Origin: Propionibacteriaceae bacterium
GTDB lineage: Bacteria > Actinomycetota > Actinomycetes > Propionibacteriales > Propionibacteriaceae
Assembly (NCBI GenBank): GCA_017882685.1
Contig: JADGPA010000001.1
Location: 1 to 35,866 of the forward strand
Direction of reading: 5' to 3'
Length of the DNA: 35,866 nt
Part shown: positions 11,687 to 23,710 of the stretch, piece by piece
Numbering within the stretch: the stretch's first letter is position 1
How the letters are laid out: each line of letters begins with the position of its first letter
Position numbers and translations under genes: made by a program
The notes under the pieces: model-generated
Seen by the model: the letters and a program-made list of their open reading frames with translations, nothing else
Told to the model about the DNA's origin: nothing
Databases searched by the model: none

Positions 11687-12430
11687 GTGGCAGACAACCT
11701 GAACCTCGCCGGCGACGACCCGACCGGCTACCAGGCCGCGGAGGCCCAGGCGGGGTCGCACGGACACCGACTCAACAGCCTTCGCGCTGCCGTGCTCGGC
11801 GCCAACGACGGCATCGTCTCCACCGCCGGCATCGTGATCGGTGTTGCGGGCGCCACTCTCGAGGCGTTCACCATCCTTGCGGCAGGCATCGCAGGCCTCA
11901 CCGCCGGTGCGCTGTCGATGGCAGTCGGCGAGTATGTCTCGGTCAGCGCCCAGCGCGACACCGAGAAGGCCCTGCTGGACAAGGAACGCCGCGAGCTCGA
12001 GGAGATGCCGGAAGAGGAGCTCGCAGAACTGGCCGGGCTGTACGAGGCGAAGGGCCTCGAGCCCGATCTTGCGCTCCAGGTCGCCACCCAGTTGCACGCC
12101 CATGACGCCCTGGGCGCACACGCGGAGACCGAACTCGGGATCGACCCGAACGAACTCACGAGCCCGTGGATCGCCGCTGTGTCGTCGGCGGTCTCGTTCA
12201 CGATCGGCTCGATCCTGCCGCTGGTCGCGATCATCTTCGCCCCGACAGATCTCAAGATCATTGTCACCGTCGCCGCGGTCGCCATAGCCCTTGTCATCAC
12301 CGGCTACCTCAGCGCGCGCGTCGGCGGGACCCCGATCCTGCGGGCCATCCTGCGCAACCTCGTCGGTGGGTTGCTGGCCATGGGCATCACCTACTGGATA
12401 GGACGCCTCGTCGGCCACACCCTCGGCTAG
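11687..12430 (+). CDS. VIT1/CCC1-family Fe/Mn transporter
   Basis: A 247-aa membrane protein from GTG 11687, preceded by GAGGAG. LRAAVLGANDGIVSTAGIVIGVAGA is the first helix with the conserved N-D-G-I-V-S motif. MAVGEYVSVSAQRDTEKALL is the second signature. A charged cytoplasmic helical hairpin rich in Glu follows (LEEMPEEELAEL), the metal-binding domain in plant VIT1, and then three more membrane helices. It probably exports or stores Fe2+/Mn2+. Its TAG overlaps the TAG of the convergent amidohydrolase gene on the palindrome CTAG, leaving no room for a terminator. Confidence 0.93.
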   Translation: MADNLNLAGDDPTGYQAAEAQAGSHGHRLNSLRAAVLGANDGIVSTAGIVIGVAGATLEAFTILAAGIAGLTAGALSMAVGEYVSVSAQRDTEKALLDKERRELEEMPEEELAELAGLYEAKGLEPDLALQVATQLHAHDALGAHAETELGIDPNELTSPWIAAVSSAVSFTIGSILPLVAIIFAPTDLKIIVTVAAVAIALVITGYLSARVGGTPILRAILRNLVGGLLAMGITYWIGRLVGHTLG

Positions 12431-13578
12431 CCCGCCTGGTGCAGGAGCTGGCCGCGGACGAAGACCGCGACTACCCGGGACGGGTCGCGCAGAACCTCGG
12501 GACGGCGCGGGTCGGCGTTGAAGCAGACCAGATCAGCGGGTGCGCCGGGCCGGATCACTCCCAGGTCGCGGCGGCCGAGCAGGCGGGCACCGCCGGCCGT
12601 GCCGGCCAGCAGCGCAGTGTCGACGGGCACTCCGGCCTCGATCAGCGCGGCCAGTTCGTGCAGGTTCCGGCCATGCTGGGTGTCGAGGCCCGCGTCGGTG
12701 CCCATCGCCAGCTGCACCCCCGCCTCCAGGCAGCGGCGGACGGCGAGCGGGTGCGCCTCGACGGCCCGACGTGCGGCCGGTGCGAGCACGGACGGCAGGG
12801 CACCGGACTCTGCCATCGCCAGCACGTCGGTATAGATCCACACCGTGGGCACCACGAACGCGCCCCGGTCGGCGGCGAGCCGGCACTGCTCATCGCTGAT
12901 CAGCACGGCGTGCTCGATGCTGGCCGCCCCGCTCTCCAGGGCCCAGGTGAGGGCGTCCCCGCCCCACGCGTGCACCATCACCGGCAGGTTGGCGTGGGCT
13001 GCGGCGACGTGGATCGCCTTGAGCTCGAGCGCGTCGAACACCGGGTCCAGCACCCGCTCCCCCGCCCCGACACCTCCGGTGGCAAGCACCTTGATCCAGG
13101 ACGCACCGGCGTCCGCCAGCTGCTGCACCCGACCCCGAAGGTGCGCCGCGCCGCGGGCGTCCGCCGGCCCGAGTAGCTGGACGCTGAGCGCTGCCCGCAG
13201 CCCGCCGGCCTCCTGCGCCAGGGTTACGGTGAGCCCGCTGGCGTCCCGGATGCTGGTGACCCCTGCGGCAAGCGTCCGGCCTGCGTTCAACCGCACGTCG
13301 CTGGCCTGTTCTTCTGGGCTGTGGCGCTCGCGATCGGCGGCATCGAAGGCCTGCCAGGCGAGGTGGGTGTGGGCGTCGATGAAGCCCGGAGTCAGCCACA
13401 TGCCGGTGGCATCGGTCCGGTGAGCGACCGCACCAGAGTCGTCGTCGGCGCCGAAGACGCCGTCCTTCATGATCACCGTGCCGGTGCGGAACGTGCCATC
13501 CGTCCCGAGCACTTGCGCGTTCTCGAGCTGCGCACCCTCGGGGTCGTGTCGCGCTCCCGCGGCGGCGTCCCAGGTCAT
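12427..13578 (-). CDS. Amidohydrolase (prolidase/imidazolonepropionase-like, metal-dependent)
   Basis: A 383-aa enzyme of the amidohydrolase superfamily. Metal-site residues are visible: H70 and H72 (FIDAHTHL), K163 (WIKVLATGG, the carboxylated lysine), H203 (VMVHAWGGDA), H223 (SIEHAV) and D295 (MGTDAGLD). The C-terminal GVIRPGAPADLVCFNADP returns to the small β-domain. This layout fits the Xaa-Pro/Xaa-Arg dipeptidase and imidazolonepropionase branch more than urease or allantoinase. The ATG at 13578 overlaps the aminotransferase stop (ATGA); an in-frame upstream start is possible. It is the last gene of the polycysteine-led transport operon, so it likely hydrolyses an amide or cyclic amide in the imported compound (inference). 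Confidence 0.87.
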   Translation of the reverse strand: MTWDAAAGARHDPEGAQLENAQVLGTDGTFRTGTVIMKDGVFGADDDSGAVAHRTDATGMWLTPGFIDAHTHLAWQAFDAADRERHSPEEQASDVRLNAGRTLAAGVTSIRDASGLTVTLAQEAGGLRAALSVQLLGPADARGAAHLRGRVQQLADAGASWIKVLATGGVGAGERVLDPVFDALELKAIHVAAAHANLPVMVHAWGGDALTWALESGAASIEHAVLISDEQCRLAADRGAFVVPTVWIYTDVLAMAESGALPSVLAPAARRAVEAHPLAVRRCLEAGVQLAMGTDAGLDTQHGRNLHELAALIEAGVPVDTALLAGTAGGARLLGRRDLGVIRPGAPADLVCFNADPRRPEVLRDPSRVVAVFVRGQLLHQAG

Positions 13579-14654
13579 CCGGTCTCCTCCCACGCCTGTG
13601 TCGCAGCCTGCCGCGCCGCGTCGCTGTTCGCCGGGACGCCGAGCGCCCCGGCCAGCCGATCGACGCCGCCCAGCACCGCGTCCAGGTCCGCGGCCCGGCC
13701 GAAGTGGTTGACGCGGAACAGCTCACCGGCCAGCGGCCCGTCGCCGGGAGCGAGCAGCGCCCCGGGCTGCAGGACGCCGGGCAGCCCTACAGGCACAGGG
13801 TCGGGCAGCGCCACCGTGGTGCAGACCGCGGCGCGCCGTCCCTGCGCTGCCCAGGGATGCATCCCGAGTGCGCGGACGGCAGCGACGGTGGCGGCACGCG
13901 CCTGACGGTGCCGTCTCTCGACCGCATCGACGCCCTCGGCCTGCACCCGGCGCAACGCGGCCAGCAGCGCCCGGGTCTCCAGCACCGAAGGGGTGCCAGG
14001 TATCCGGGAGTGATCGGTGCGCAGCCACCCGTCAGCCCAATCGAGCAGGGACAGCGTCGAGGAGCGCGGCGCCGCAGGGTTGTTCTCGATGCGCCGCCAC
14101 GCCCGCTCGCTGACCGCTGCCGCACTCACTCCGGCGGGCCCGGCAAGCGCCTTCTGACCGCCGATAACGGCAACGTCGATGCCCCAGTCGTCGACCGCTA
14201 TCGGTTCGGCGCCGATCGCCGCGACCGCGTCCACCACGGTAAGGACTCCCACCTCGCGAGCAACCCCCAGCAGCCCAACCAGATCGAGGTTCGCCCCGGT
14301 CGCCGCCTCGGCCTGGGTCAGGGCGGCGGTGTCCATACCAAGGAGCGCTTCCCGGAAAGAGGTCTCCGACAAGCCCTGATGGCCAACCACTAGGTCGAGG
14401 ACCTCCGCGCCCGTCCGTCGCAGCCACCCTCCGAACAACGAACCGTACGGCCCAGTGACCACGTTCAGCACGCGGTTGCCCGGCCCGGCGACGCTACTGG
14501 CCACGGCCTCGAGCAGCGTGACCGCCTCCGCCTGGCACAGCACCAGCGACCCGCTGGTGCGCAGCGTCGGGGCGAGCAGCTGTTCAAGCTCCACCACCTC
14601 GGCCGGCTGCAGGTCGGGCTGGTCGAGCAGGGCTTCCGCGGCAAGTGCGCTCAC
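13575..14654 (-). CDS. Divergent class-V (alanine-glyoxylate-type) aminotransferase
   Basis: A 359-aa fold-type I PLP enzyme. VVDAVAAIGAEPIAVDDWGI supplies D142, which contacts the PLP ring nitrogen, and GGQKALAGPAGVS holds the Schiff-base lysine K168, as in alanine-glyoxylate and ureidoglycine-glyoxylate aminotransferases. TPSVLETRALLAALR fits the conserved C-terminal loop. The usual N-terminal TPGP segment is missing, and the glycine-rich SGTGS phosphate loop is replaced by LCQAEAVTLLEA, so substrate binding may differ. The GTG start overlaps the upstream ATPase stop by 4 bp. It is coexpressed with a peptide-type ABC importer and an amidohydrolase, suggesting catabolism of an imported amino compound. 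Cysteine desulfurase activity is unlikely, since no catalytic Cys loop is seen. Confidence 0.82.
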   Translation of the reverse strand: MSALAAEALLDQPDLQPAEVVELEQLLAPTLRTSGSLVLCQAEAVTLLEAVASSVAGPGNRVLNVVTGPYGSLFGGWLRRTGAEVLDLVVGHQGLSETSFREALLGMDTAALTQAEAATGANLDLVGLLGVAREVGVLTVVDAVAAIGAEPIAVDDWGIDVAVIGGQKALAGPAGVSAAAVSERAWRRIENNPAAPRSSTLSLLDWADGWLRTDHSRIPGTPSVLETRALLAALRRVQAEGVDAVERRHRQARAATVAAVRALGMHPWAAQGRRAAVCTTVALPDPVPVGLPGVLQPGALLAPGDGPLAGELFRVNHFGRAADLDAVLGGVDRLAGALGVPANSDAARQAATQAWEETG

Positions 14655-15415
14655 CGGGCCTCCTTCACGATGCGGGGCACGGCTTCGAGAAGTGCGCGGC
14701 TGTAGGGGTGCTCAGGGTGGGTGAAGAACCGGCCGGCCGGGGCGACCTCCACCAGCCGCCCGCCCTGCAGCACGGCGACGTCGTCGCAGACGGCGTTGAT
14801 CACCGAGAGGTCGTGGGAGATGAAGAGCGTCGCAAGGTTCATCTGCGCCGACAGCCCTGACAGAAGCTCCAGCACCGTCTTCTGCACCGACACGTCCAGC
14901 GAACTGGTGGGCTCGTCTGCCACCAGCACGGCCGGCTCGACGGACAGCGCCCGCGCAATCGCGATCCGCTGCCGCTGCCCGCCGGAGAACTGCCGCGGAT
15001 ACCGGTCGAGGGCTTCGGCCTCCAGCCCGACCAACCCCAGCAGCTCGGCGGACCGCGCGCGACGCTGCGTCCGGTCGCCGCCGAGGTGGTGGACGCGGAG
15101 GAGCTCATCCAGCACAGAGCCGATGGTCAGCGCCGGGTTCAGCGAGGCGAACGGGTCCTGCCCCACCAGCTGGATGGCGCGGCGCTCGTCGCGGCTCCGG
15201 CGCCCGGAGCGCAGCTCCGCCCCGTCCAGCCGGATACTCCCCGACACCAGAGCAACCGACCCGACGATGGCCCGGGCCAGCGTGGTCTTGCCCGAGCCCG
15301 ACTCCCCTACCAGCCCCACGATCCGACCGGGAGCGACCTGCAGGCTCACCGAACCGACCACCCTCGCCGACCCATAGGCCACGCCGACGTCGACCAGCTC
15401 CAGGCCGCTACTCAC
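14651..15415 (-). CDS. ABC transporter ATP-binding protein (OppF/DppF-like)
   Basis: A 254-aa ATPase with Walker A GESGSGKTT, Q-loop LVGQDPFASLNPALTIG, signature FSGGQRQRIAIARAL, Walker B VLVADEPTSSLD and the H-loop FISHDLSVINAV. The closing TAGRFFTHPEHPYSRALLEAVP-like segment (quoted in part) is typical of the Opp/Dpp ATPase C-terminus. The GTG start at 15415 lies 8 bp inside the end of the other ATPase gene, so translation is coupled. It pairs with the next ATPase to power the two permeases. Confidence 0.93.
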   Translation of the reverse strand: MSSGLELVDVGVAYGSARVVGSVSLQVAPGRIVGLVGESGSGKTTLARAIVGSVALVSGSIRLDGAELRSGRRSRDERRAIQLVGQDPFASLNPALTIGSVLDELLRVHHLGGDRTQRRARSAELLGLVGLEAEALDRYPRQFSGGQRQRIAIARALSVEPAVLVADEPTSSLDVSVQKTVLELLSGLSAQMNLATLFISHDLSVINAVCDDVAVLQGGRLVEVAPAGRFFTHPEHPYSRALLEAVPRIVKEAR

Positions 15416-16163
15416 CGCTCACCTCCGCGAGAGCCGGCAGCGGCAACACGGCGTCCACAAGGGCTTTCGTATACACGTGCGTCGGCCGGTTCACGATGTC
15501 GGCGGTGAGCCCGGTCTCCACCAGCACCCCGTCGCGGAACACGACCACGCGGCCGCACAACGAGGCCACGACGGCCAGGTCGTGGCTGACGAACAGCAGC
15601 GACAGTCCGCGGCCGGCCCGCAGCTCGGCCAGCAGGGCGAGCACCTCGGCCTGCACGGTCACGTCGAGAGCGGTGGTCGGCTCGTCGCACAGCAGGATGT
15701 CGGGCTCGGTGGCCAGCGCGATTGCCAGCAGCACCCGCTGCCGCTGCCCGCCGGAAAGCTGGTGGGGGTAGCGGCGCAGCAGGGCGTCCGGGTCGGGCAG
15801 ACGGACGTCGGCGAACAGGTCACGGGCTCGAGCCCGCGCCGACACCACAGACCCGCCGTGACGGGCGCGGCACACCTCGGCCAGCAGGCTGCCAACCCGG
15901 GTCATCGGGTCGGGATAGCTCAGCGGGTCCTGAAAGATCATCGCCACCCGTCCGCCCACCTCGACCTGCCCGCCGCTCACACGCAACCCTCGCGGCAACA
16001 GCCCCGTCACCGCCCGCAGCGTGAGGGTCTTGCCAGAGCCCGACTCCCCCACGATGCCCAGTGCCTCGCCGGGCTCCAGCGACAGGTCGATGCCGTGCAC
16101 AAGCTCGGTCTCGCCGGTGATCCGCAGCCCCGTCACGGCGAGCGCACCGCGCGACAGGCTCAT
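15408..16163 (-). CDS. ABC transporter ATP-binding protein (OppD/DppD-like)
   Basis: A 251-aa ATPase from ATG 16163, which overlaps the permease TGA (ATGA). Walker A is GESGSGKTLTLRAV, Q-loop IFQDPLSYPDPMTRVG, signature LSGGQRQRVLLAIAL, Walker B ILLCDEPTTALD and H-loop FVSHDLAVVASL. The PTHVYTKALVDAVLPLP tail is that of Opp/Dpp ATPases. It is shorter than many OppD proteins (about 320 aa), since the cysteine-bearing C-terminal extension is reduced. It forms an importer with the neighbouring genes. Confidence 0.93.
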   Translation of the reverse strand: MSLSRGALAVTGLRITGETELVHGIDLSLEPGEALGIVGESGSGKTLTLRAVTGLLPRGLRVSGGQVEVGGRVAMIFQDPLSYPDPMTRVGSLLAEVCRARHGGSVVSARARARDLFADVRLPDPDALLRRYPHQLSGGQRQRVLLAIALATEPDILLCDEPTTALDVTVQAEVLALLAELRAGRGLSLLFVSHDLAVVASLCGRVVVFRDGVLVETGLTADIVNRPTHVYTKALVDAVLPLPALAEVSGE

Positions 16164-17017
16164 CGCAGCCTCCACACGTCGGCCAGCCCGTCGCCCAGCA
16201 GCGACAGCCCGACGCCGGTGGTCACCACTGCAAGACCCGGCAGGCTCGGAATCCACCACTTCGTGGCAAGGAACAGCTGCCCGTCGCTGATCATCGTGCC
16301 CCAGTCGGGGGTAGGCGGCTGCACCCCGAGCCCCAGGTAGCCAAGGGTGACGACGGCCACCATGATCAGCAGGATCTCGGTCATCAGCAGCACCACAGCC
16401 TGCGGCAGCACGTTCGGCAACAGGTGCCGCGCAACCACCCGCGGGTGCGACAAACCGCCACCGTAGGCTGCGCCCACCCAGCCCTCGCGGCACAGCGCGC
16501 GTGTCTTGGCGCGGATCACCCGGGCCGAACTGATCCATCCGACAAGGGCGTACGCGATGAAGATGCCGTTCTCGCCGGTGCCAGTGGCGAACACGATGGC
16601 GATGATCAGCACGTAGAACGGGAACGCGACGAACGTGTCGACGATGCGCCCGATCACCCAGTCGATCCGCCCGCCGGCGTACCCGCTGACCAGGCCGACC
16701 ACCAGACCGGTGACGAACGGGATGATCGCGGCCACCACGGCGATCCGCAGGTCGGTGCGTCCGGCCCAGATCACCCGGGAGAGGATGTCGCGCCCCAGCT
16801 GGTCGGTCCCGAACCAGTGGGACGCGGACGGCGCGGCGAGGCCGTTGCCGAGGTTCTGGGTCTCCGGGTCGTAGGGCGCGACGATCGGCGCCAGCACCGA
16901 GACGGTCACCATGAACGTCAGCAGGAACGCCCCGGCGACGAGGGCGGGGCTGCGTCGGGCGCGGCGCAACCAGCGCATGAACGGACGCGGGGCGGCGACG
17001 GCGGTGGCGGTGCTCAT
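16160..17017 (-). CDS. ABC transporter permease (DppC/OppC-like)
   Basis: A 285-aa membrane protein with about six helices. An N-terminal cytoplasmic basic segment (MRWLRRARRSPALVAG) leads into TM1, then APYDPETQNLGNGLAAPSAS and HWFGTDQLGRDILSRVIWAG, the DppC hallmark. The EAA loop is in the VIRAKTRALCREGWVGAAYG region, where the sequence diverges somewhat from the usual EYVxAARA. It ends ...LLGDGLADVWRLR, typical of the family. It overlaps its neighbours by 4 bp on both sides. It probably forms the channel together with the adjacent DppB-like protein. Confidence 0.92.
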   Translation of the reverse strand: MSTATAVAAPRPFMRWLRRARRSPALVAGAFLLTFMVTVSVLAPIVAPYDPETQNLGNGLAAPSASHWFGTDQLGRDILSRVIWAGRTDLRIAVVAAIIPFVTGLVVGLVSGYAGGRIDWVIGRIVDTFVAFPFYVLIIAIVFATGTGENGIFIAYALVGWISSARVIRAKTRALCREGWVGAAYGGGLSHPRVVARHLLPNVLPQAVVLLMTEILLIMVAVVTLGYLGLGVQPPTPDWGTMISDGQLFLATKWWIPSLPGLAVVTTGVGLSLLGDGLADVWRLR

Positions 17018-17949
17018 ACTGCCCGGATCCGGGGGTCGAGGGTGGCCACCAGCAGGTCGGTGACCAGCGAGATCACCACAACGCCCATCGCGCTGACCAG
17101 CGTGATGCCCTGCACCACCGGGAAATCGCGGGTGCTGATCGAGCTGAACAGCAGCGCTCCCATGCCGTTGATGGCGAACACCTTCTCGATCACCAGCGTC
17201 CCGCCCAGCAGGTACGCCACGTTCACCCCCAGCAACGACAGGGCAGGAACCGCGGCGTTACGCAGCACGTGCCGGACAATGATGCTGGTCGCACCCAGCC
17301 GGGCGGCGTGCAGCGTGACCACGAAGTCGGCGTCCAGCACTTCGAGAAGCTGCTCGCGCAGCGAACGTATCAGCGGTGGCGACATGCCCAGCGCAACGGT
17401 TAGCGCGGGCAGGATCAGGCTGCGCAGGGGGTCGGTGGGGCTGGCGCCGATGCCGCCGACCGGCAGCCACCGCAGCGCCACCCCGAACACCAGGATCAGG
17501 ATCAGTCCCACCCAGAACGCCGGCATCGCCATGCCGATGGTCGGGAAGATCCGCACCACGTGGTCGAGCGGCCCGTCCTTGTGGGTGGCGGCGACGAGAG
17601 CCAGGGGCACAGCGATCAGCACCGTGAACAGCACGGCCAGGCCCACCAGCAGCAGCGTCACCGGGAAGCGCGTCAGGATCAGCCCGAGCACCGGCTGGTC
17701 GGTGACCAGGGAATGCCCGATGTCGGCGCGGGTGAACACCCCCACCAGATAGCTCAGGAGTTGCTGGCCGATCGGCAGGTTCAGCCCGAGTTGCTCGCGC
17801 AGCGCGTCGATCGATGCCGTGGTGGCCTGCTCGCCGAGGATCATCCGGGCGGGGTCCCCAGGGACGATCCGCAGCAGCAGGAAGACACACACCACCACGC
17901 CAAGGGCCACCGTGATGGCGGCGAGCAGTGAGCGTCCGAACCAGCGCAT
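17014..17949 (-). CDS. ABC transporter permease (DppB/OppB-like)
   Basis: A 311-aa membrane protein. FLLLRIVPGDPARMILGEQA is the classic DppB N-terminus and LREQLGLNLPIGQQLLSYL its first periplasmic stretch. The EAA loop lies in LLEVLDADFVVTLHAARLGA, followed by HVLRNAAVPALSLLG. LEGTLVIEKVF-like sequence (here LGGTLVIEKVFAINGMGALL) and DPRIRAV at the end are standard. It lies 29 bp after the solute-binding lipoprotein gene and overlaps the next permease by 4 bp. Confidence 0.93.
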   Translation of the reverse strand: MRWFGRSLLAAITVALGVVVCVFLLLRIVPGDPARMILGEQATTASIDALREQLGLNLPIGQQLLSYLVGVFTRADIGHSLVTDQPVLGLILTRFPVTLLLVGLAVLFTVLIAVPLALVAATHKDGPLDHVVRIFPTIGMAMPAFWVGLILILVFGVALRWLPVGGIGASPTDPLRSLILPALTVALGMSPPLIRSLREQLLEVLDADFVVTLHAARLGATSIIVRHVLRNAAVPALSLLGVNVAYLLGGTLVIEKVFAINGMGALLFSSISTRDFPVVQGITLVSAMGVVVISLVTDLLVATLDPRIRAV

Positions 17950-17978: not shown

Positions 17979-19559
17979 TTACTTCTGTAGCCAGACGTCC
18001 TGGAAGAGAACGCTGCCGTTGATCCGCGGCGTAAGGCCGTGGACGGACGCCAGCGACGCCACCACGTTCCGGGTGTTGTAGATCGGAATGTAGGGCACCT
18101 CGTCGGCAAGGATCTGCTGGATCTCGGCGTAGATTCCTGCCCGCGCATCACCGTCGGGGGTGACCCGGCCCTGCTCGGCCAGAGTGGTGACCTTGTCATT
18201 GGTGTAGTGCGTCCAGAAGGACTTGCTGAAACCATTCGGGTCCGTCTGGAAGGCGATCAGCCCGTTCGGGTCGGGCGCGTCGCTCTGCCCGGAGTTGATC
18301 ATCGCGTCGAACTTGTACGCGAAGAACCGCTCGCGGAAGGCATTGAGCTCGATCGCCTCGATCTTGAGGGTGATGCCCAGCGGCTTGACGGCCTCCTGGA
18401 TGATCTGGGCCTCCTGCGCGCGGACGGAGTTGCCGGACGCGATCAGGAGGGTGGCGGTGAAGCCCTGCGGGAACTTCGACGCGGCCAGTTCGGTCAACGC
18501 CCTGGCCGGGTCGTTGTCGAGGGCCTTCACGGGTGCGGAGTACTGGATCGTCGGCGGGATCAGGGTCAACACCCTCTGCGCCGCGCCGAAGGTGACTGCC
18601 TGCGTGATGCCGTCCCGGTTGAGGGAGAGTGCGATGGCTCGGCGGACGTGCGGGTCGGCGAAGTACTGGTTCTGCGTGTTGAAGAAGACCTGCTCCACCT
18701 CCCAGGAGCCCAGCTGCGACACCGTGACGTTCGCGTCGCTACTGAGCTGCGAGATGGTGGCCGGGGCCACAGCGTCAATGCCGGAGAGTTGGCCGGCCTG
18801 TAGCTGCTGGATGCGCTGGGTGTCGTCGGCCACCACCTTGTAGACCAGCTTGTCGGCGTACGGCTTGCCTGCCTGCCAGTAGTGGGGGTTGGCGGTGAAG
18901 GTGGTGTCGCCGCTGGGGTCCCAGGTGCCGACGACCCACGGGCCGGTGCCGATGGGCTTGGCGAAGAACTCCTTCTCCGTCAACCCGGCGAAGTCCTTCG
19001 GGAAGACGCCGTTGGAGAAGCCGGACAGCTCCGAAAGGAACGGGGTGTAGGCGTTCTTGAGCGTGATGGTGAGGGTCTGGTCGTCGGTGGCTGCGATCTT
19101 GGCGATCGGCGCCTCCAGCGGCAGCGGGCCCTGCACCTTGATGTGCCGATCGAGGGAGAACTTGGCATCGGCCGCGGTCACCGGGGTGCCGTCGGAGAAC
19201 TGCAGGCCGCTGCGCAGGGTGAAGGTGTAGGTGAGCTGGTCGTCGCTCACCGTCCATTTCTCTGCCAGCCAGGGAATGATCTTGCCCTCGGTGTCGAAGG
19301 AGACCAGCGGCTCGAACACCTTGTCGATGGCGAAGGCGTTGTTGGCTGTGATCTGGTTGTTCAGGTCGAAGGACGTGGTGGCAGCTGCCCGTCCGAAGGT
19401 GATGGTGCCGCCCTTGGTCGGGGTGGCGGCAGCGGTCGCGCTGGCCGAGCCGGCGGTGGTGGCGGTCGGCGCTGCCGAGCAGGCCGCGAGCCAGATCAGG
19501 GCTACGGCCGCTGCGGCAAGCAGCGCGATCCAACGTCGGCGTGTGTTGAGCGAGGACAT
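17979..19559 (-). CDS. ABC transporter solute-binding lipoprotein, family 5 (peptide/nickel type)
   Basis: A 526-aa extracellular lipoprotein. The N-terminus is RRRWIALLAAAAVALIWLAAC, with the lipobox LAAC placing the lipidated cysteine near residue 27. A low-complexity Thr/Ala linker follows, then SBP family 5 blocks: AEKWTVSDDQLTYTFTLRSG, FSDGTPVTAADAKFSLDR, and the DPNG/FWTHYTND region. ATG 19559 is favoured over an upstream GTG, because AGGAAG is then well spaced. It determines substrate choice for the importer. Family 5 members bind peptides, opines, nickel chelates or glutathione, and the polycysteine leader upstream hints at a sulfur compound. Gene order SBP-B-C-D-F is canonical. Confidence 0.94.
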   Translation of the reverse strand: MSSLNTRRRWIALLAAAAVALIWLAACSAAPTATTAGSASATAAATPTKGGTITFGRAAATTSFDLNNQITANNAFAIDKVFEPLVSFDTEGKIIPWLAEKWTVSDDQLTYTFTLRSGLQFSDGTPVTAADAKFSLDRHIKVQGPLPLEAPIAKIAATDDQTLTITLKNAYTPFLSELSGFSNGVFPKDFAGLTEKEFFAKPIGTGPWVVGTWDPSGDTTFTANPHYWQAGKPYADKLVYKVVADDTQRIQQLQAGQLSGIDAVAPATISQLSSDANVTVSQLGSWEVEQVFFNTQNQYFADPHVRRAIALSLNRDGITQAVTFGAAQRVLTLIPPTIQYSAPVKALDNDPARALTELAASKFPQGFTATLLIASGNSVRAQEAQIIQEAVKPLGITLKIEAIELNAFRERFFAYKFDAMINSGQSDAPDPNGLIAFQTDPNGFSKSFWTHYTNDKVTTLAEQGRVTPDGDARAGIYAEIQQILADEVPYIPIYNTRNVVASLASVHGLTPRINGSVLFQDVWLQK

Positions 19560-19609
19560 GGTCACTTCCTGGTCGGTCAGTTACTGGGTTCAACGATGAC
19601 AGGGTGGAG

Positions 19610-19637
19610 AACGATCCCTGAGGCCTGTCGAAGGGTC
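19610..19637. repeat. Intergenic palindromic repeat, copy 1 (consensus GATCCCTGAGC-TGTCGAAGGGTC)
   Basis: AACGATCCCTGAGGCCTGTC followed by GAAGGGTC. It is an imperfect hairpin (GATCCCT against AGGGTC) of the CCCTGAGC-N-GTCGAAGGG type, widely dispersed in actinobacterial intergenic DNA. It lies 51 bp upstream of the solute-binding-protein start, inside the presumed mRNA leader. Confidence 0.65.
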
Positions 19638-19645
19638 GGGACGGG

Positions 19646-19672
19646 AACGTTCCCCGAGCTAGACGAAGGGTT
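19646..19672. repeat. Intergenic palindromic repeat, copy 2
   Basis: AACGTTCCCCGAGCTAGACG followed by AAGGGTT is a second, diverged copy in the same orientation, 9 bp after copy 1. It overlaps the perfect 12-bp palindrome GGGAACGTTCCC at 19643-19654. The two copies together fill most of the leader between the polycysteine ORF and the operon, and could form alternative RNA hairpins. Confidence 0.55.
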
Positions 19673-19699
19673 GGGCGGTTGTGCCCATGGTTGGCTGGA

Positions 19700-19765
19700 T
19701 CAGCAACAACAACAGCCGACACGGAACAGGGCCACGGACAGGCCGCACATTCGGTCGCTACGCAT
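19700..19765 (-). CDS. Leaderless polycysteine leader peptide, putative cysteine-responsive attenuator
   Basis: A 21-codon ORF, ATG at 19765, TGA at 19700-19702. It has Cys at position 7 and ends RVGCCCC, four consecutive Cys codons (TGT TGT TGT TGC) before the stop. A TATTCT -10 box ends exactly 6 bases before the ATG, which places transcription start at the A of ATG, i.e. a leaderless mRNA. Short leaderless polycysteine ORFs are known in mycobacteria to control downstream sulfur genes by ribosome stalling when charged tRNA-Cys is scarce. Here the gene 140 bp downstream is the solute-binding protein of an ABC importer operon. Attenuation is inferred from architecture; the ORF and promoter box are seen directly. 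Confidence 0.72.
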   Translation of the reverse strand: MRSDRMCGLSVALFRVGCCCC

Positions 19766-19771
19766 GCGCCG

Positions 19772-19777
19772 AGAATA
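19772..19777 (-). promoter_or_regulatory. -10 box TATTCT of the polycysteine leader / ABC importer operon
   Basis: TATTCT on the minus strand matches TANNNT and is separated from the polycysteine ATG by the six bases CGGCGC. No ribosome binding site fits between them. The spacing is that of actinobacterial leaderless promoters. No clear -35 is visible, which is common in this group. Confidence 0.55.
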
Positions 19778-19815
19778 GCGATCGGGGCGCCGCGGGCCAA
19801 CTTCTGCTCCTCCGG

Positions 19816-20030
19816 CTAGGGAAGCGACTTGATCAGCTCCCACTCGGTGGCTGCCTGCTTCCTCAGCCCGGCGATGCTGAGGTGGCTGTGGTCCGCTGCC
19901 AGGTCCTCGCCCGTGATGGTCATCTGGTTGAGCGCCCCGCCGCAATGCGGAAACCCCAATGGCGCCGGATTTCGCAAGAATGCCGCCCTGAAGCCTCTAT
20001 GCGGAATTCCTAGCCCCAGCAGGCACCCTT
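19816..20030 (-). pseudogene. C-terminal remnant of an SGNH/GDSL-type hydrolase
   Basis: A reading frame without a sensible start is open from about 20036 to TAG at 19816-19818. Its last ~40 residues include TITGEDLAADHSHLSIAGLR and AATEWELIKSLP. DHSHLSIAG resembles the conserved Asp-x-x-His block near the end of SGNH hydrolases (D-x-x-H-L-S/P-x-x-G). The catalytic GDS N-terminus is absent, and the upstream part reads as poor-quality sequence. I call it a 5'-truncated remnant. An alternative is that it is a chance match of a small ORF starting at ATG 19923. Confidence 0.4.
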
Positions 20031-20304: not shown

Positions 20305-22296
20305 CTAGGCGCCCCAGTAGTTGCCGAGGTCGGCACGGCGGGCGCTCAGGTACTCCGAGACCACAGCTGCGCCCAGGTCGTCCAGGTCAGGGTTGACCAC
20401 GCGGCCGTCCACCCGGTCGGCCATCTGCCGGACGAAGCTCTCCAGGCCCGGGTCGTCCCCAAGCCGGAAGAACGTGATCCGTGCGCCCAGCCGGCGCACC
20501 CGATCGAGCTGGGCAACGGTCGCGCGCAGCGTTGGCAGGCTCGGCGGGTAGCTGAACAGTGAATCCCCGTCGGGGGCGAGGTACGCCGTCGGCTCCCCGT
20601 CGGTGACGATCAGCACCACCGGCTGCATGGTCGGGTGCTTGCGAAACATCTGCTCAGCGAGCAGCAGGGCGTGGTGCAGGTTCGTGCCCTGCTCGCGCAG
20701 GGCCGGCAACCCGACCAGGTGCTCCACGGCGACCGTCTCGGCGTACCTGCCGAACGTGATCAGGTCGAGCTGGTCGCCCCGCCACCGCGTCGACACCAGG
20801 TGGTGCAGCGCCAGCGCTGTGCGCTTCATCGGCAGCCAGCGTCCCTCTGCTGCCATCGAGAACGACGTGTCCGCCAGCAGCGCCACCGCCGCCTGCGTGC
20901 GCGTCTCGGTCTCGACGATCTCCACGTCCTCCAGGTGCACGCGGACGCGGCCGCCAGCCCCGGGATGCTCGGCGTCGGTCACGTCCCGGCGCATCGCGTT
21001 GAGGATCGTGCGGGTCACGTCCCAGGGTTCGGTGTCCCCGAACGCCCACTGCCGGGTTGAGCCGGTCAGCTCCCCCGCCGCGCCGGAAAGCCGGGCTTCG
21101 CGCTGCCCGGTGCGTCCGCTGAGTCGGTCGGACACCTCCTGCAGGAGCGTCTTGCCCAGCTGGCGCATGGCCCGGGGCGAGAGCTTCAGGTTGCCGTCGG
21201 AGCCGCGGCTCAGGTAGCCGGCGTTCCGCAGCGCCCGCTCGAGCTCCGCCAGCGTCCGGGCCGACACGGCGGCGTCAGGGCCGAGCTGGCGTGCCATCGC
21301 GTCGACGTCGATGTCTTCCATCCGCGCTCCGCCATAGCCCTGGCCCAGCTGTGCGGCCAGCGAGTCCAGCTCGGCCAGGTCCTGCAGGACGCCGGTGCCG
21401 TCGCCCAGCCCCAACCCCTGGTCGCCGCCGAACTGCTCCGAACCCGACCAGTCCTCCCCCGGACGCAGCGACTGCAGGTTCGCGTCCAGCTGCCCCAGTT
21501 GGGCCATCAGCTCGGGTGACCCGAACGCTTGCATCGAGAGTTGCATCAGCTCCTGACGTTGCTCGGGGGTCATCGAGTTCAGCATCCGTTGCGCCGCTGC
21601 GGCCCGGTTGGCGAGGGCGTCGATCAGCTCCTCCACGTCTTGCGGGTTCTCCGGGAAGAAGTCGCCGTGCTTGTTCATGAAGTCGGTGAAGTCCTGATCG
21701 GTGTCCTCGCCGCGTCGGTGCGCCTCCAGCAGATCGTTGAGGTCCTTGAGCATCTCTGCGATCGCCTCGCGGTCGGAGTCGGTGGCGTTCTCCAGTGCCT
21801 CCTTCATGCCGGCGAAGCGCTGGTCGAGCAGCTCGCGGCCCAGCAGGTCCTTGATCTTCTCGTAGGCCTCGCGCGCCGGCTTCGAGCGCCAGTCGTAGTC
21901 GGACAGCTCCCGGACGGCAGCAGCCGTCGACTCGGGCAGGTTGGACAGCTGCAGCTCCCGGAAGTCGCGATCCAGGTCGTCGAGGGTGATGTCGCGAGCG
22001 AGCTCCTTGCGTTCCTCGAGGACGGCGGTGTCCAGGAGCTCCTTCACCTCGGCCAGCGTCCCGTCCAGCTTGTTGGTGTCGAGGAGCTCCCGGCGTCTGG
22101 CCTGCACCCGTCCGGCCAGGTCGTCGAGACCCTGCTGACCGCGTCCGCCGCGGCGCAGGAACTCCCGCAAGGCACGCTCGGCGGAGTAGCCGGCCATCAC
22201 GTCCTCGCTGATCGCCGCCAGCGCCTCGGCGAGGTCGACAGGGGGCGCCAACGGGTCGGGACCGTCGACGTACCTGCCGTACCGGGAGCGGGGCAT
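20305..22296 (-). CDS. VWA-domain protein (CoxE/Mg-chelatase ChlD-like partner of AAA ATPase)
   Basis: A 663-aa protein from ATG 22296 with AAGGATGG upstream. The N-terminal two thirds are charged and helical (many Asp/Glu/Leu/Arg), with a Gly-rich stretch around residues 330-350 (GGDQGLGLGDGTG). The C-terminal third is a von Willebrand A domain: LLADTSFSM is the MIDAS D-x-S-x-S site and VLIVTDGEPTAY the later metal-contact loop. Such proteins work with MoxR/Mg-chelatase-I-type ATPases to remodel or insert metal into a client. The matching ATPase gene lies 25 bp upstream and is presumably cotranscribed. The client is unknown. Confidence 0.88.
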   Translation of the reverse strand: MPRSRYGRYVDGPDPLAPPVDLAEALAAISEDVMAGYSAERALREFLRRGGRGQQGLDDLAGRVQARRRELLDTNKLDGTLAEVKELLDTAVLEERKELARDITLDDLDRDFRELQLSNLPESTAAAVRELSDYDWRSKPAREAYEKIKDLLGRELLDQRFAGMKEALENATDSDREAIAEMLKDLNDLLEAHRRGEDTDQDFTDFMNKHGDFFPENPQDVEELIDALANRAAAAQRMLNSMTPEQRQELMQLSMQAFGSPELMAQLGQLDANLQSLRPGEDWSGSEQFGGDQGLGLGDGTGVLQDLAELDSLAAQLGQGYGGARMEDIDVDAMARQLGPDAAVSARTLAELERALRNAGYLSRGSDGNLKLSPRAMRQLGKTLLQEVSDRLSGRTGQREARLSGAAGELTGSTRQWAFGDTEPWDVTRTILNAMRRDVTDAEHPGAGGRVRVHLEDVEIVETETRTQAAVALLADTSFSMAAEGRWLPMKRTALALHHLVSTRWRGDQLDLITFGRYAETVAVEHLVGLPALREQGTNLHHALLLAEQMFRKHPTMQPVVLIVTDGEPTAYLAPDGDSLFSYPPSLPTLRATVAQLDRVRRLGARITFFRLGDDPGLESFVRQMADRVDGRVVNPDLDDLGAAVVSEYLSARRADLGNYWGA

Positions 22297-22321
22297 GCCG
22301 CCATCCTTTCTAGAGCACTGC

Positions 22322-23710
22322 CTATCCGTAGATCGTCTGGCCGTCGTCGGACTCCTTGGAGATCCGGCGGGCGAGGTAGAGCCCTTCGAGCGCGAGTTCG
22401 ATGGCGCTGGCGCGGGTGCCGTCGGTGGTGGCATCGAACCGTTCGCAGATCTGGTCGTACACCTCCGCGCCGTCCAGCGACGGCAGGCCGGTGAGGAACT
22501 CCCGCGCGGTCACCTGCTCGCCGGTGGTGACCGTGGTGTGGCCGTCGAGCGCTCCGACCAGGGGCCCGAGGTCGATCCCGCGGAAGTGCTGACGGACGGT
22601 CTCCGCAGTGGCTGTGCGCAGCAGGTGGGCGAGGATCTCGGGCTCGCGTCCCTCCTCGCCGGATTCGAACTCGAGCTTGCCGGTGAGCACGTCCACGGCA
22701 GCCTCCAGGTCGACGATCCGCGCGACGGCCTCAGGCTCGCCGCGGGACGTGGCTCGGTGCAGCGCCGCGGCGGCGACGGTCTCGGCGCCGGCGATCGCGA
22801 ACCGTGCCGACACCCCGGAGCGCTGGTTGATCGCCTGCGAGGCGCGCAGCGCCCGGGTGTAGCGGGCGAGGATGTCCATGATGGGGGCGGGGATGGCCGC
22901 CACCAGCTTCGCTTCCTGGGTGATGACGGCGATCTCGTCGTCCAGCTCGATCGGGTAGTGGGTGCGGATCTCGGCGCCGAATCGATCCTTCAGCGGCGTG
23001 ATGATGCGGCCGCGGTTGGTGTAGTCCTCGGGGTTGGCCGACGCGACCACCAGCACGTCCAGCGGTAGCCGCAGCACGTAGCCGCGAATCTGGATGTCGC
23101 GCTCCTCCATCACGTTCAGCATCGACACCTGGATGCGCTCGGCCAGGTCGGGCAGCTCGTTGATGGCGACGATGCCGCGGTGCGAGCGCGGGATCAGCCC
23201 GTAGTGGATCGTCTCGGGGTCGCCCAGCTGGCGTCCCTCTGCCACCTTCATCGGGTCGACGTCGCCGACCAGGTCGGCCACCGAGGTGTCGGGGGTGGCG
23301 AGCTTCTCCGAGTACCGCTCGGAACGATGCCGCCAGGAGATCGGCAATTGATCGCCCTCGGCGGCAGCCCTGCGACGGGACGCGGGCGTGATCGGGTCGT
23401 AGGGATGCTCGCCCAGCTCTGCGCCGTCGATCACCGGCGTCCACTCGTCGAGCAGGCCCACCATCGAACGCAGCAGCCGGGTCTTGCCCTGCCCCCGCTC
23501 GCCCAGCAGGACGACGTCGTGGCCGGCGATCAGGGCGCGTTCCAGCTGCGGCAGCACGGTGCGGCTGAAACCGTGCATGCCGGGCCAGGGGTTCTCTCCG
23601 GCGGCAAGTTTGGCCAGCAGGTTGTCGCGGATCTCGGTGTGCAGGTGCTTGTGCACATGGCCGGACGCGCGCAGTTCGCCGAGGGTCCGGATGGCAGGGG
23701 GTTCACTCAC
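22322..23710 (-). CDS. MoxR/Mg-chelatase-type AAA+ ATPase
   Basis: A 462-aa AAA+ protein. Walker A is GERGQGKT (residues 70-77). GIVAINELPDLAERIQVSML carries the Walker B region (with N-E for the usual D-E), MEERDIQIRGYVLRLPLDVLV is the helix-2 insert region of Mg-chelatase/MoxR proteins, and VVASANPEDYTNRGRIITPL is sensor 1. The C-terminal helical lid follows. It probably forms a ring that acts through the adjacent VWA protein, a pair seen in Mg-chelatase (BchI/BchD), CoxD/CoxE and RavA/ViaA. The substrate cannot be read from the context. A leading role in chlorophyll synthesis is excluded by the absence of such genes. Confidence 0.87.
   Translation of the reverse strand: MSEPPAIRTLGELRASGHVHKHLHTEIRDNLLAKLAAGENPWPGMHGFSRTVLPQLERALIAGHDVVLLGERGQGKTRLLRSMVGLLDEWTPVIDGAELGEHPYDPITPASRRRAAAEGDQLPISWRHRSERYSEKLATPDTSVADLVGDVDPMKVAEGRQLGDPETIHYGLIPRSHRGIVAINELPDLAERIQVSMLNVMEERDIQIRGYVLRLPLDVLVVASANPEDYTNRGRIITPLKDRFGAEIRTHYPIELDDEIAVITQEAKLVAAIPAPIMDILARYTRALRASQAINQRSGVSARFAIAGAETVAAAALHRATSRGEPEAVARIVDLEAAVDVLTGKLEFESGEEGREPEILAHLLRTATAETVRQHFRGIDLGPLVGALDGHTTVTTGEQVTAREFLTGLPSLDGAEVYDQICERFDATTDGTRASAIELALEGLYLARRISKESDDGQTIYG

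Follow-up and report, generated by a model that had tools for sequence, protein, structure and literature searches.

A predicted cysteine-sensing leader ORF ahead of a peptide/nickel-type importer operon in a Propionicimonas-like genus of the Propionibacteriaceae

Introduction

Polycysteine-encoding leaderless short ORFs of mycobacteria are reportedly the subject of Canestrari et al. 2020 in Mol Microbiol, and in the polycysteine leaders of Mycobacterium smegmatis the pairing of the leader with the Shine-Dalgarno sequence is said to be blocked by a paused ribosome. Leaderless polycysteine ORFs are reported as established cysteine-responsive attenuators in M. smegmatis (via PMC9031893, PMC9094748, PMC13236596). 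A prediction from 2005 lists candidate cysteine leader peptides for cys operons in Mycobacterium spp. and in Propionibacterium acnes, as well as for cbs in Bifidobacterium longum (PMC1262725).

The locus described here is predicted to be a further polycysteine leaderless attenuator, with an unusual controlled operon. It lies in a stretch of 35,866 nucleotides, analysed as a whole and called the window below, which is contig C51 in a draft genome (215 contigs, 88.9% complete) of a Propionicimonas-like member of the Propionibacteriaceae, the family to which P. acnes also belongs. Related genomes are referred to by G numbers and the loci examined in them by L numbers.

A leaderless-type polycysteine ORF ahead of an importer operon

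The leader and its promoter-like elements lie on the minus strand as follows:

19800-19795, minus strand: weak -35-like hexamer TTGGCC, 17 nt from the -10 element
19777-19772, minus strand: -10 element TATTCT, 6 bases before the leader ATG
19765-19700, minus strand: leaderless-type polycysteine leader ORF of 21 codons, ATG to TGA (from translation, conservation in relatives and chance simulation)

Translation of 19765-19700 on the minus strand yields the peptide MRSDRMCGLSVALFRVGCCCC, with cysteine codons at positions 7 and 18-21, which bears out the 21-codon ORF ending in four cysteine codons of the initial annotation; the TATTCT box that it had placed just ahead of the ORF start also stands, six bases separating the -10 element from the ATG at 19765. 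Leader transcription would start at the A of this ATG. Because a longer open frame (81 aa, opening with a TTG at 19945) encloses this ATG, we infer the leader start from the -10 element together with conservation. The hexamer TTGGCC and its 17-nt spacing to the -10 element are also present in one relative, G027 (read by eye). A generic sigma-70 scan of 19450-19900 called no promoters, the TATTCT element included.

The rarity of such an ORF was gauged in 150 simulated windows (first-order Markov, same dinucleotide make-up, both strands), in which we counted ORFs of 8-45 codons with TANNNT 5-7 nt before an ATG or GTG, at least two cysteine codons and a CC pair. Matching ORFs arose at 0.08 per simulated window, and those with at least four cysteines at 0.013 per window, while a run of four cysteine codons occurred in none of the 150; in the whole of the real window, the leader is the sole ORF of this description. 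No Rfam family of cis-regulatory RNAs matched the window at gathering score, and no NCBIfam family matched the window leader peptide at E up to 1 or four other leader peptides at E up to 0.1.

The operon downstream consists of seven genes on the minus strand, reaching to 12427, in which consecutive genes overlap or nearly touch:

19571-19699, minus strand: untranslated spacer, C-rich and G-poor, a candidate Rho loading site and/or region of pairing with the ribosome-binding site (RBS) (from composition)
19570-19565, minus strand: Shine-Dalgarno sequence AGGAAG of the first operon gene (from sequence)
17979-19559, minus strand: SBP_bac_5 substrate-binding lipoprotein (Pfam PF00496, E=2e-87)
17014-17949, minus strand: ABC permease 1, BPD_transp_1 (profile matches)
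16160-17017, minus strand: ABC permease 2, BPD_transp_1 and OppC_N (profile matches)
15408-16163, minus strand: ABC ATPase 1, peptide/nickel type, with its ATG at 16163 (profile matches)
14651-15415, minus strand: ABC ATPase 2, peptide/nickel type (profile matches)
13575-14654, minus strand: class-V aminotransferase (profile matches)
12427-13593, minus strand: amidohydrolase of the prolidase/amide-hydrolase group (profile matches and motifs)

These Pfam and NCBIfam gene calls agree with the peptide/nickel-type importer, aminotransferase and amidohydrolase that the initial annotation had placed downstream. The leader stop codon lies 129 nt ahead of the Shine-Dalgarno sequence of the first operon gene, whose start is most likely the ATG at 19559 and not the mechanically listed GTG at 19565. 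The substrate-binding protein is called a lipoprotein from its signal-peptide-like N-terminus (read by eye), and YliB/GsiB and Lmo0135/CtaP are two of its many relatives. For the aminotransferase, the nearest NCBIfam model is pyridoxamine-pyruvate transaminase, which scores below cut-off. The amidohydrolase has HxH, Lys, His, His and Asp motifs that are kept in all seven operons found in the genus and that we take to be metal ligands; amide hydrolases, an arginine carboxypeptidase and a Xaa-Pro dipeptidase are among its nearest solved relatives. Upstream of the leader, genes for a VWA-domain protein and a MoxR/Mg-chelatase-like AAA ATPase occupy 20305-23710 of the window on the minus strand. 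This gene pair also adjoins the importer in G027 and has no match in the examined stretches of the other five relatives.

Conservation of the leader in related genomes

An orthologous importer is present in 7 of 30 genomes of the genus (E up to 1e-100), one relative having a substrate-binding protein 91% identical to that of the window. The gene order SBP-permease-permease-ATPase-ATPase-amidohydrolase is kept in the six relatives, and among the seven operons the aminotransferase was found only in the window and in G027 (E up to 1e-15, in the stretches examined). Upstream of all seven importers lies a homologous leader region with the layout TATYCT, 5-7 nt, start position and leader, the -10 element reading TATCCT or TATTCT. 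Five of the seven regions hold an intact leaderless-type ORF with 4-5 cysteine codons and two a broken one. Both counts support the proposal of the initial annotation, in which a peptide/nickel-type importer is preceded by a leaderless polycysteine attenuator.

The leaders of the window and G027 encode an identical peptide and differ at 1 of 66 bases, a synonymous change, within flanks that are far more diverged (by eye). The other three intact leader peptides are MHSDRMRGRMPARCCACCRCWL in G011, MHSDRMRGRMPAPCGACCRCWC in G026 and MYGNRMHGRMLRCAACCRCWR in G017, all with 4-5 dispersed cysteine codons. The initial annotation had looked to an alignment of the leader across relatives for conservation of the cysteine run: the alignment upholds the homologous region in 7/7 and the intact ORF in 5/7, but the run of four cysteines itself is confined to the window and G027. 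Across the intact leaders the number of cysteine codons is kept (4-5) while their positions shift, a pattern that would agree better with a sensor that counts codons than with a functional peptide.

The broken leaders are those of G015 and G024 (L061:717-781 and L062:7375-7440). In the former, a GTG start is in a different frame from the cysteine codons, and the latter has AAG at the start position and no stop; the two losses suggest either that some lineages can do without the control or that the draft genomes contain errors. Both genomes keep an intact leader ahead of metY, and G024 also one ahead of sir (see below). Beside the importer leader, a divergent gene for a GyrI-like small-molecule-binding protein (Pfam) lies at L058:6077-6532 and L062:6765-7220, and similar ORFs of 151-162 aa occur in the same place in L059, L060 and L061.

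How specific the leader is to this importer was assessed among 20 SBP_bac_5 loci in three genomes, G000, G027 and G011. Three of these loci have a cysteine leader, and they are the three orthologues of the window gene; the other 17 have none within the flank scanned (up to 1.5 kb, so that a leader farther away would escape). The distant importers of G093 and G045 (34 and 32% identity) have no cysteine leader in a strict scan, and six matches of the strict scan in loci of distant genomes were set aside as chance. When the G011 leader peptide was searched against 197 genomes of the family, it matched in G011, G026 and G017 and gave two weak matches in other genera; the latter are placed within long frames and were not counted as leaders. 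This search missed the leaders of the window and G027 and therefore understates the spread of the leader.

Sibling leaders ahead of sulfur operons

The window's own genome has cysteine leaders at two other kinds of operon. The leaderless-type leader MPERNSSVPGLRGVDLRRSMCCAY (L104:4873-4947, contig C131) stands ahead of sir-cysH-cysD-cysN-CbiX, in which sir, a gene of the sulfite/nitrite-reductase family, is followed by cysH, cysD, cysN and a CbiX-type gene, and the leader MSSMRSATMCCRCLPSMVCCRMR stands ahead of metY-cysK. A TANNNT element precedes the ATG by 7 nt in the sir leader and by 6 nt in the metY leader. The sir leader was found in five of the six genomes in which the sir start could be examined, the exception being G004, whose sir gene has no cysteine leader upstream. 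In the relatives G011, G026, G017 and G024 it ends MCCAC or MCCAS, and that of G011 does not have TANNNT at the standard distance used in the scan. All seven importer genomes, G015 and G024 included, keep an intact metY leader; a search with its peptide (E up to 0.01) matched 16 of the 30 genomes of the genus and 1 of 167 other family genomes, genomic context being established in the seven importer genomes. In G017, a different leader, MITMRFATMCCCRASMACPAC, is found ahead of a second cysK.

Hence, one genome carries a multi-locus set of cysteine leaders, at the importer, sir-cysHDN and metY-cysK. These siblings lend further support to the attenuator claim, as does the lack of a leader, within the flank scanned, at the other 17 of the 20 SBP_bac_5 loci.

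Two related observations concern metY and cysK loci. The window's genome contains two metY loci, L117 (contig C177) and L135 (contig C188), with an identical leader peptide and diverged spacers; the draft genome may combine two strains or contain a duplication. In L072 (G028) and L073 (G014), short leaderless-type ORFs ending MCCPR lie about 1.1 kb upstream of cysK and are followed by two small genes, one of which encodes a CAPC motif; these ORFs may be a further cysteine leader.

Proposed sensing mechanism and probable sulfur link

We consider it highly likely that the importer operon is under the control of a leader that senses cysteine through its codons; given the sister leaders ahead of sulfate and cysteine genes, the operon would very probably be switched on when cysteine is short. 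In the proposed mechanism, ribosomes would load directly on the 5' AUG of the leader and translate its 21 codons. When charged tRNA-Cys is scarce, a ribosome would pause at Cys18-21 and keep the downstream mRNA permissive for the operon. When charged tRNA-Cys is plentiful, the ribosome would complete the leader and depart, and the spacer would then shut the operon off, with the Shine-Dalgarno sequence hidden and/or Rho loaded on the C-rich spacer. The transcription start, leader translation, the pausing at cysteine codons, the direction of the response and the scavenging, by importer and amidohydrolase, of a peptide or amide that yields cysteine or sulfur are the parts that we infer. The sensor part of this proposal is well supported, and the output step is left between masking of the RBS and Rho.

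One may argue that the ORF instead encodes a small cysteine-rich protein acting in trans, such as a metal or redox peptide, and the N-terminus M.(S/G)(D/N)RM.G, conserved in the five intact leaders, is in keeping with such a product. However, the number of cysteines is kept while their positions shift, and leaders of the same leaderless-type geometry, yet encoding unrelated peptides, precede other sulfur operons, so that a peptide with a function of its own is very improbable. A chance ORF would be compatible with the two relatives that lack an intact one, but conservation, specificity among the SBP_bac_5 loci and the sibling leaders all speak against it, and we regard this reading as hardly credible at all.

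Turning to the cargo, a sulfur link is suggested by gene content and neighbourhood. Siroheme is the cofactor of sulfite reductase, and tetrapyrrole methylases also serve cobalamin. In G011 and G026, tetrapyrrole methylase-like and NAD-binding siroheme-type genes lie one gene from the importer on the opposite strand, their identities coming from Pfam on the G011 copies only. PF01507, the cysH/cysD family, matched in six of the seven importer genomes vs 7 of the 23 others (Fisher p=0.025), a modest association given uneven genome completeness; the importer genome with no PF01507 match is G027, which is 80% complete. In addition, CtaP is described as a cysteine-transport protein (PMC10269559).

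Judged from these comparisons, the importer is thus most likely part of a cysteine-attenuation regulon and a scavenger of organic sulfur. Its place in the regulon is proposed because its leader is conserved, because sibling leaders precede sulfur operons and because, among the 20 SBP_bac_5 loci, only its orthologues carry such a leader. A cysteine-yielding peptide or amide is a reasonable, though not demonstrated, predicted substrate class. It is also conceivable, but unlikely, that the leader is a true cysteine sensor and the importer carries a cargo that does not supply sulfur, such as a metal or a peptide used for carbon or nitrogen, cysteine then being a proxy signal. The best curated matches of the substrate-binding protein are nickel families, all below cut-off, and the aminotransferase reaches no cysteine-desulfurase cut-off and has other aminotransferases as its nearest solved relatives, all of which would suit such a cargo. 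On the other hand, the leader type is common to sulfate-assimilation and cysteine-synthesis operons, siroheme-type genes stand near the importer in two relatives, and SBP_bac_5 proteins include importers of glutathione and cysteine (GsiB, Lmo0135/CtaP).

How the operon might be shut off

If the output step were translation attenuation, released ribosomes would allow the leader to pair with the Shine-Dalgarno sequence and a paused ribosome would block this pairing, a model that we hold to be plausible, if somewhat short of probable. Single-sequence folds pair the leader with the Shine-Dalgarno sequence in G027 (0.58), in G011 (0.83) and partly in G024 (0.32), whereas lower values are obtained for the window (0.04), G017 (0.13), G026 (0.02) and G015 (0.00). 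Ribosome stalling was modelled for five importer leaders, the broken ORFs of G015 and G024 being left out since they have no usable cysteine frame. The modelled stall raises Shine-Dalgarno accessibility in G027 and G011 (2 of 60 shuffles reach it), but brings no such gain in the window (0.30 to 0.26), G026 or G017; in the window it is the start codon that opens, from 0.55 to 0.87 (without shuffle control). Among the sibling leaders, an effect of the modelled stall is seen in three of seven at metY (1-2 of 40 shuffles), but in none of five at sir (the start being uncertain for G011). Moreover, duplex energies between leader and RBS fall within those of shuffles in all seven regions (p 0.14-0.56), and RNAalifold on five aligned leaders stays within column shuffles for three of three alignments. 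As a general rule, leader-Shine-Dalgarno pairing is therefore rejected, given the duplex-shuffle and RNAalifold results and the mixed stall modelling. Hairpins between leader and Shine-Dalgarno sequence that were seen by eye in all seven regions are not claimed, because folding energy passes z = -2 in only two of the seven.

The output may instead depend on Rho. C-rich, G-poor RNA is the typical pattern of a Rho loading site, and a released ribosome would leave 76-133 nt of such untranslated RNA to Rho, while a paused ribosome would prevent loading; we regard this, too, as a serious candidate that falls a little below even probability. In the window, C minus G amounts to 0.19 over 19576-19699. 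The mean over spacers is 0.21 for the seven importer leaders and 0.23 for the seven metY leaders, vs 0.002 for 76 control upstream regions, which are the 86 upstream regions of the examined loci minus 10 that are linked to a leader. The 10 dropped regions range from -0.01 to 0.27, and in some of them the start had been miscalled; all 19 leaders were therefore re-measured with the control window, a stretch of 100 nt whose end lies 16 nt ahead of the start. By this control measure, the importer mean is 0.16 (p 9e-5) and the metY mean 0.22 (p 9e-6), relatives being counted separately. The sir leaders, however, are hardly skewed, with 0.12 by spacer and 0.06 by the control measure (p 0.04, relatives again counted separately), and this last value makes the sir set at best weakly skewed. 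The importer spacer of G027 is also weak in skew (0.09 and 0.05). Furthermore, composition is no proof of Rho loading, and a ribosome at Cys18-21 would cover only the first bases of the spacer. No intrinsic terminator, as a G+C-rich hairpin with a U run, was found before the first gene in 19450-19900, which counts in favour of Rho; attenuation of the trp type, by an intrinsic terminator, is rejected for want of a candidate in this interval. Rho has already been suggested for the cysteine leaders of Mycobacterium and P. acnes, in the 2005 prediction (PMC1262725). Since the importer, sir and metY each have a leader family of their own in one genome, this bacterium would suit a direct comparison of RBS masking with Rho.

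Comparison with known systems

The initial annotation had not seen this combination described, and our search agrees: no paper, judged by title or abstract opening, treats such a leader before a peptide-type importer, within a literature in which subscription journals were thinly covered. The apparent novelty lies in the type of operon, in a set of three leader families within one Propionicimonas-like genus, and in the C-rich nature of the spacer. For the importer, the leader supplies a probable signal, cysteine shortage, and a probable role, organic-sulfur scavenging, where its sequence families alone say nickel/peptide transport. For the Propionibacteriaceae, the findings suggest leaderless cysteine-codon sensing as a multi-operon set in one genus. 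A broader and rather doubtful extension would be a cysteine 'ribulon' outside mycobacteria, in which an SBP_bac_5 importer and a prolidase-like amidohydrolase were recruited as an inducible means to scavenge cysteine peptides, N-acyl-cysteine or similar amides, and whose leaders would all be switched off by Rho acting on a C-rich spacer.

We know of no cysteine leader for the CtaP or GsiABCD systems. The window importer resembles CtaP (Lmo0135, Listeria) and GsiABCD as an SBP_bac_5-type importer, those systems being tied to cysteine or glutathione; the likeness is at family level only. With the leaders of the 2005 prediction (PMC1262725), the present one shares a short ORF, cysteine codons near the stop, the lack of a terminator hairpin and the suggestion of Rho, but whereas the targets there are sulfate and cysteine genes, a further target here is a peptide-type importer. 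The likeness to the mycobacterial polycysteine leaders, as these are reported, extends to a leaderless 5' AUG ORF (its start being predicted here), consecutive cysteine codons, operons of sulfur or cysteine use (a predicted use in the case of the importer), and several loci per genome that would share one signal. Unlike those leaders, the present ones belong to the Propionibacteriaceae, and the operon that would be controlled encodes an SBP_bac_5 importer together with an amidohydrolase.
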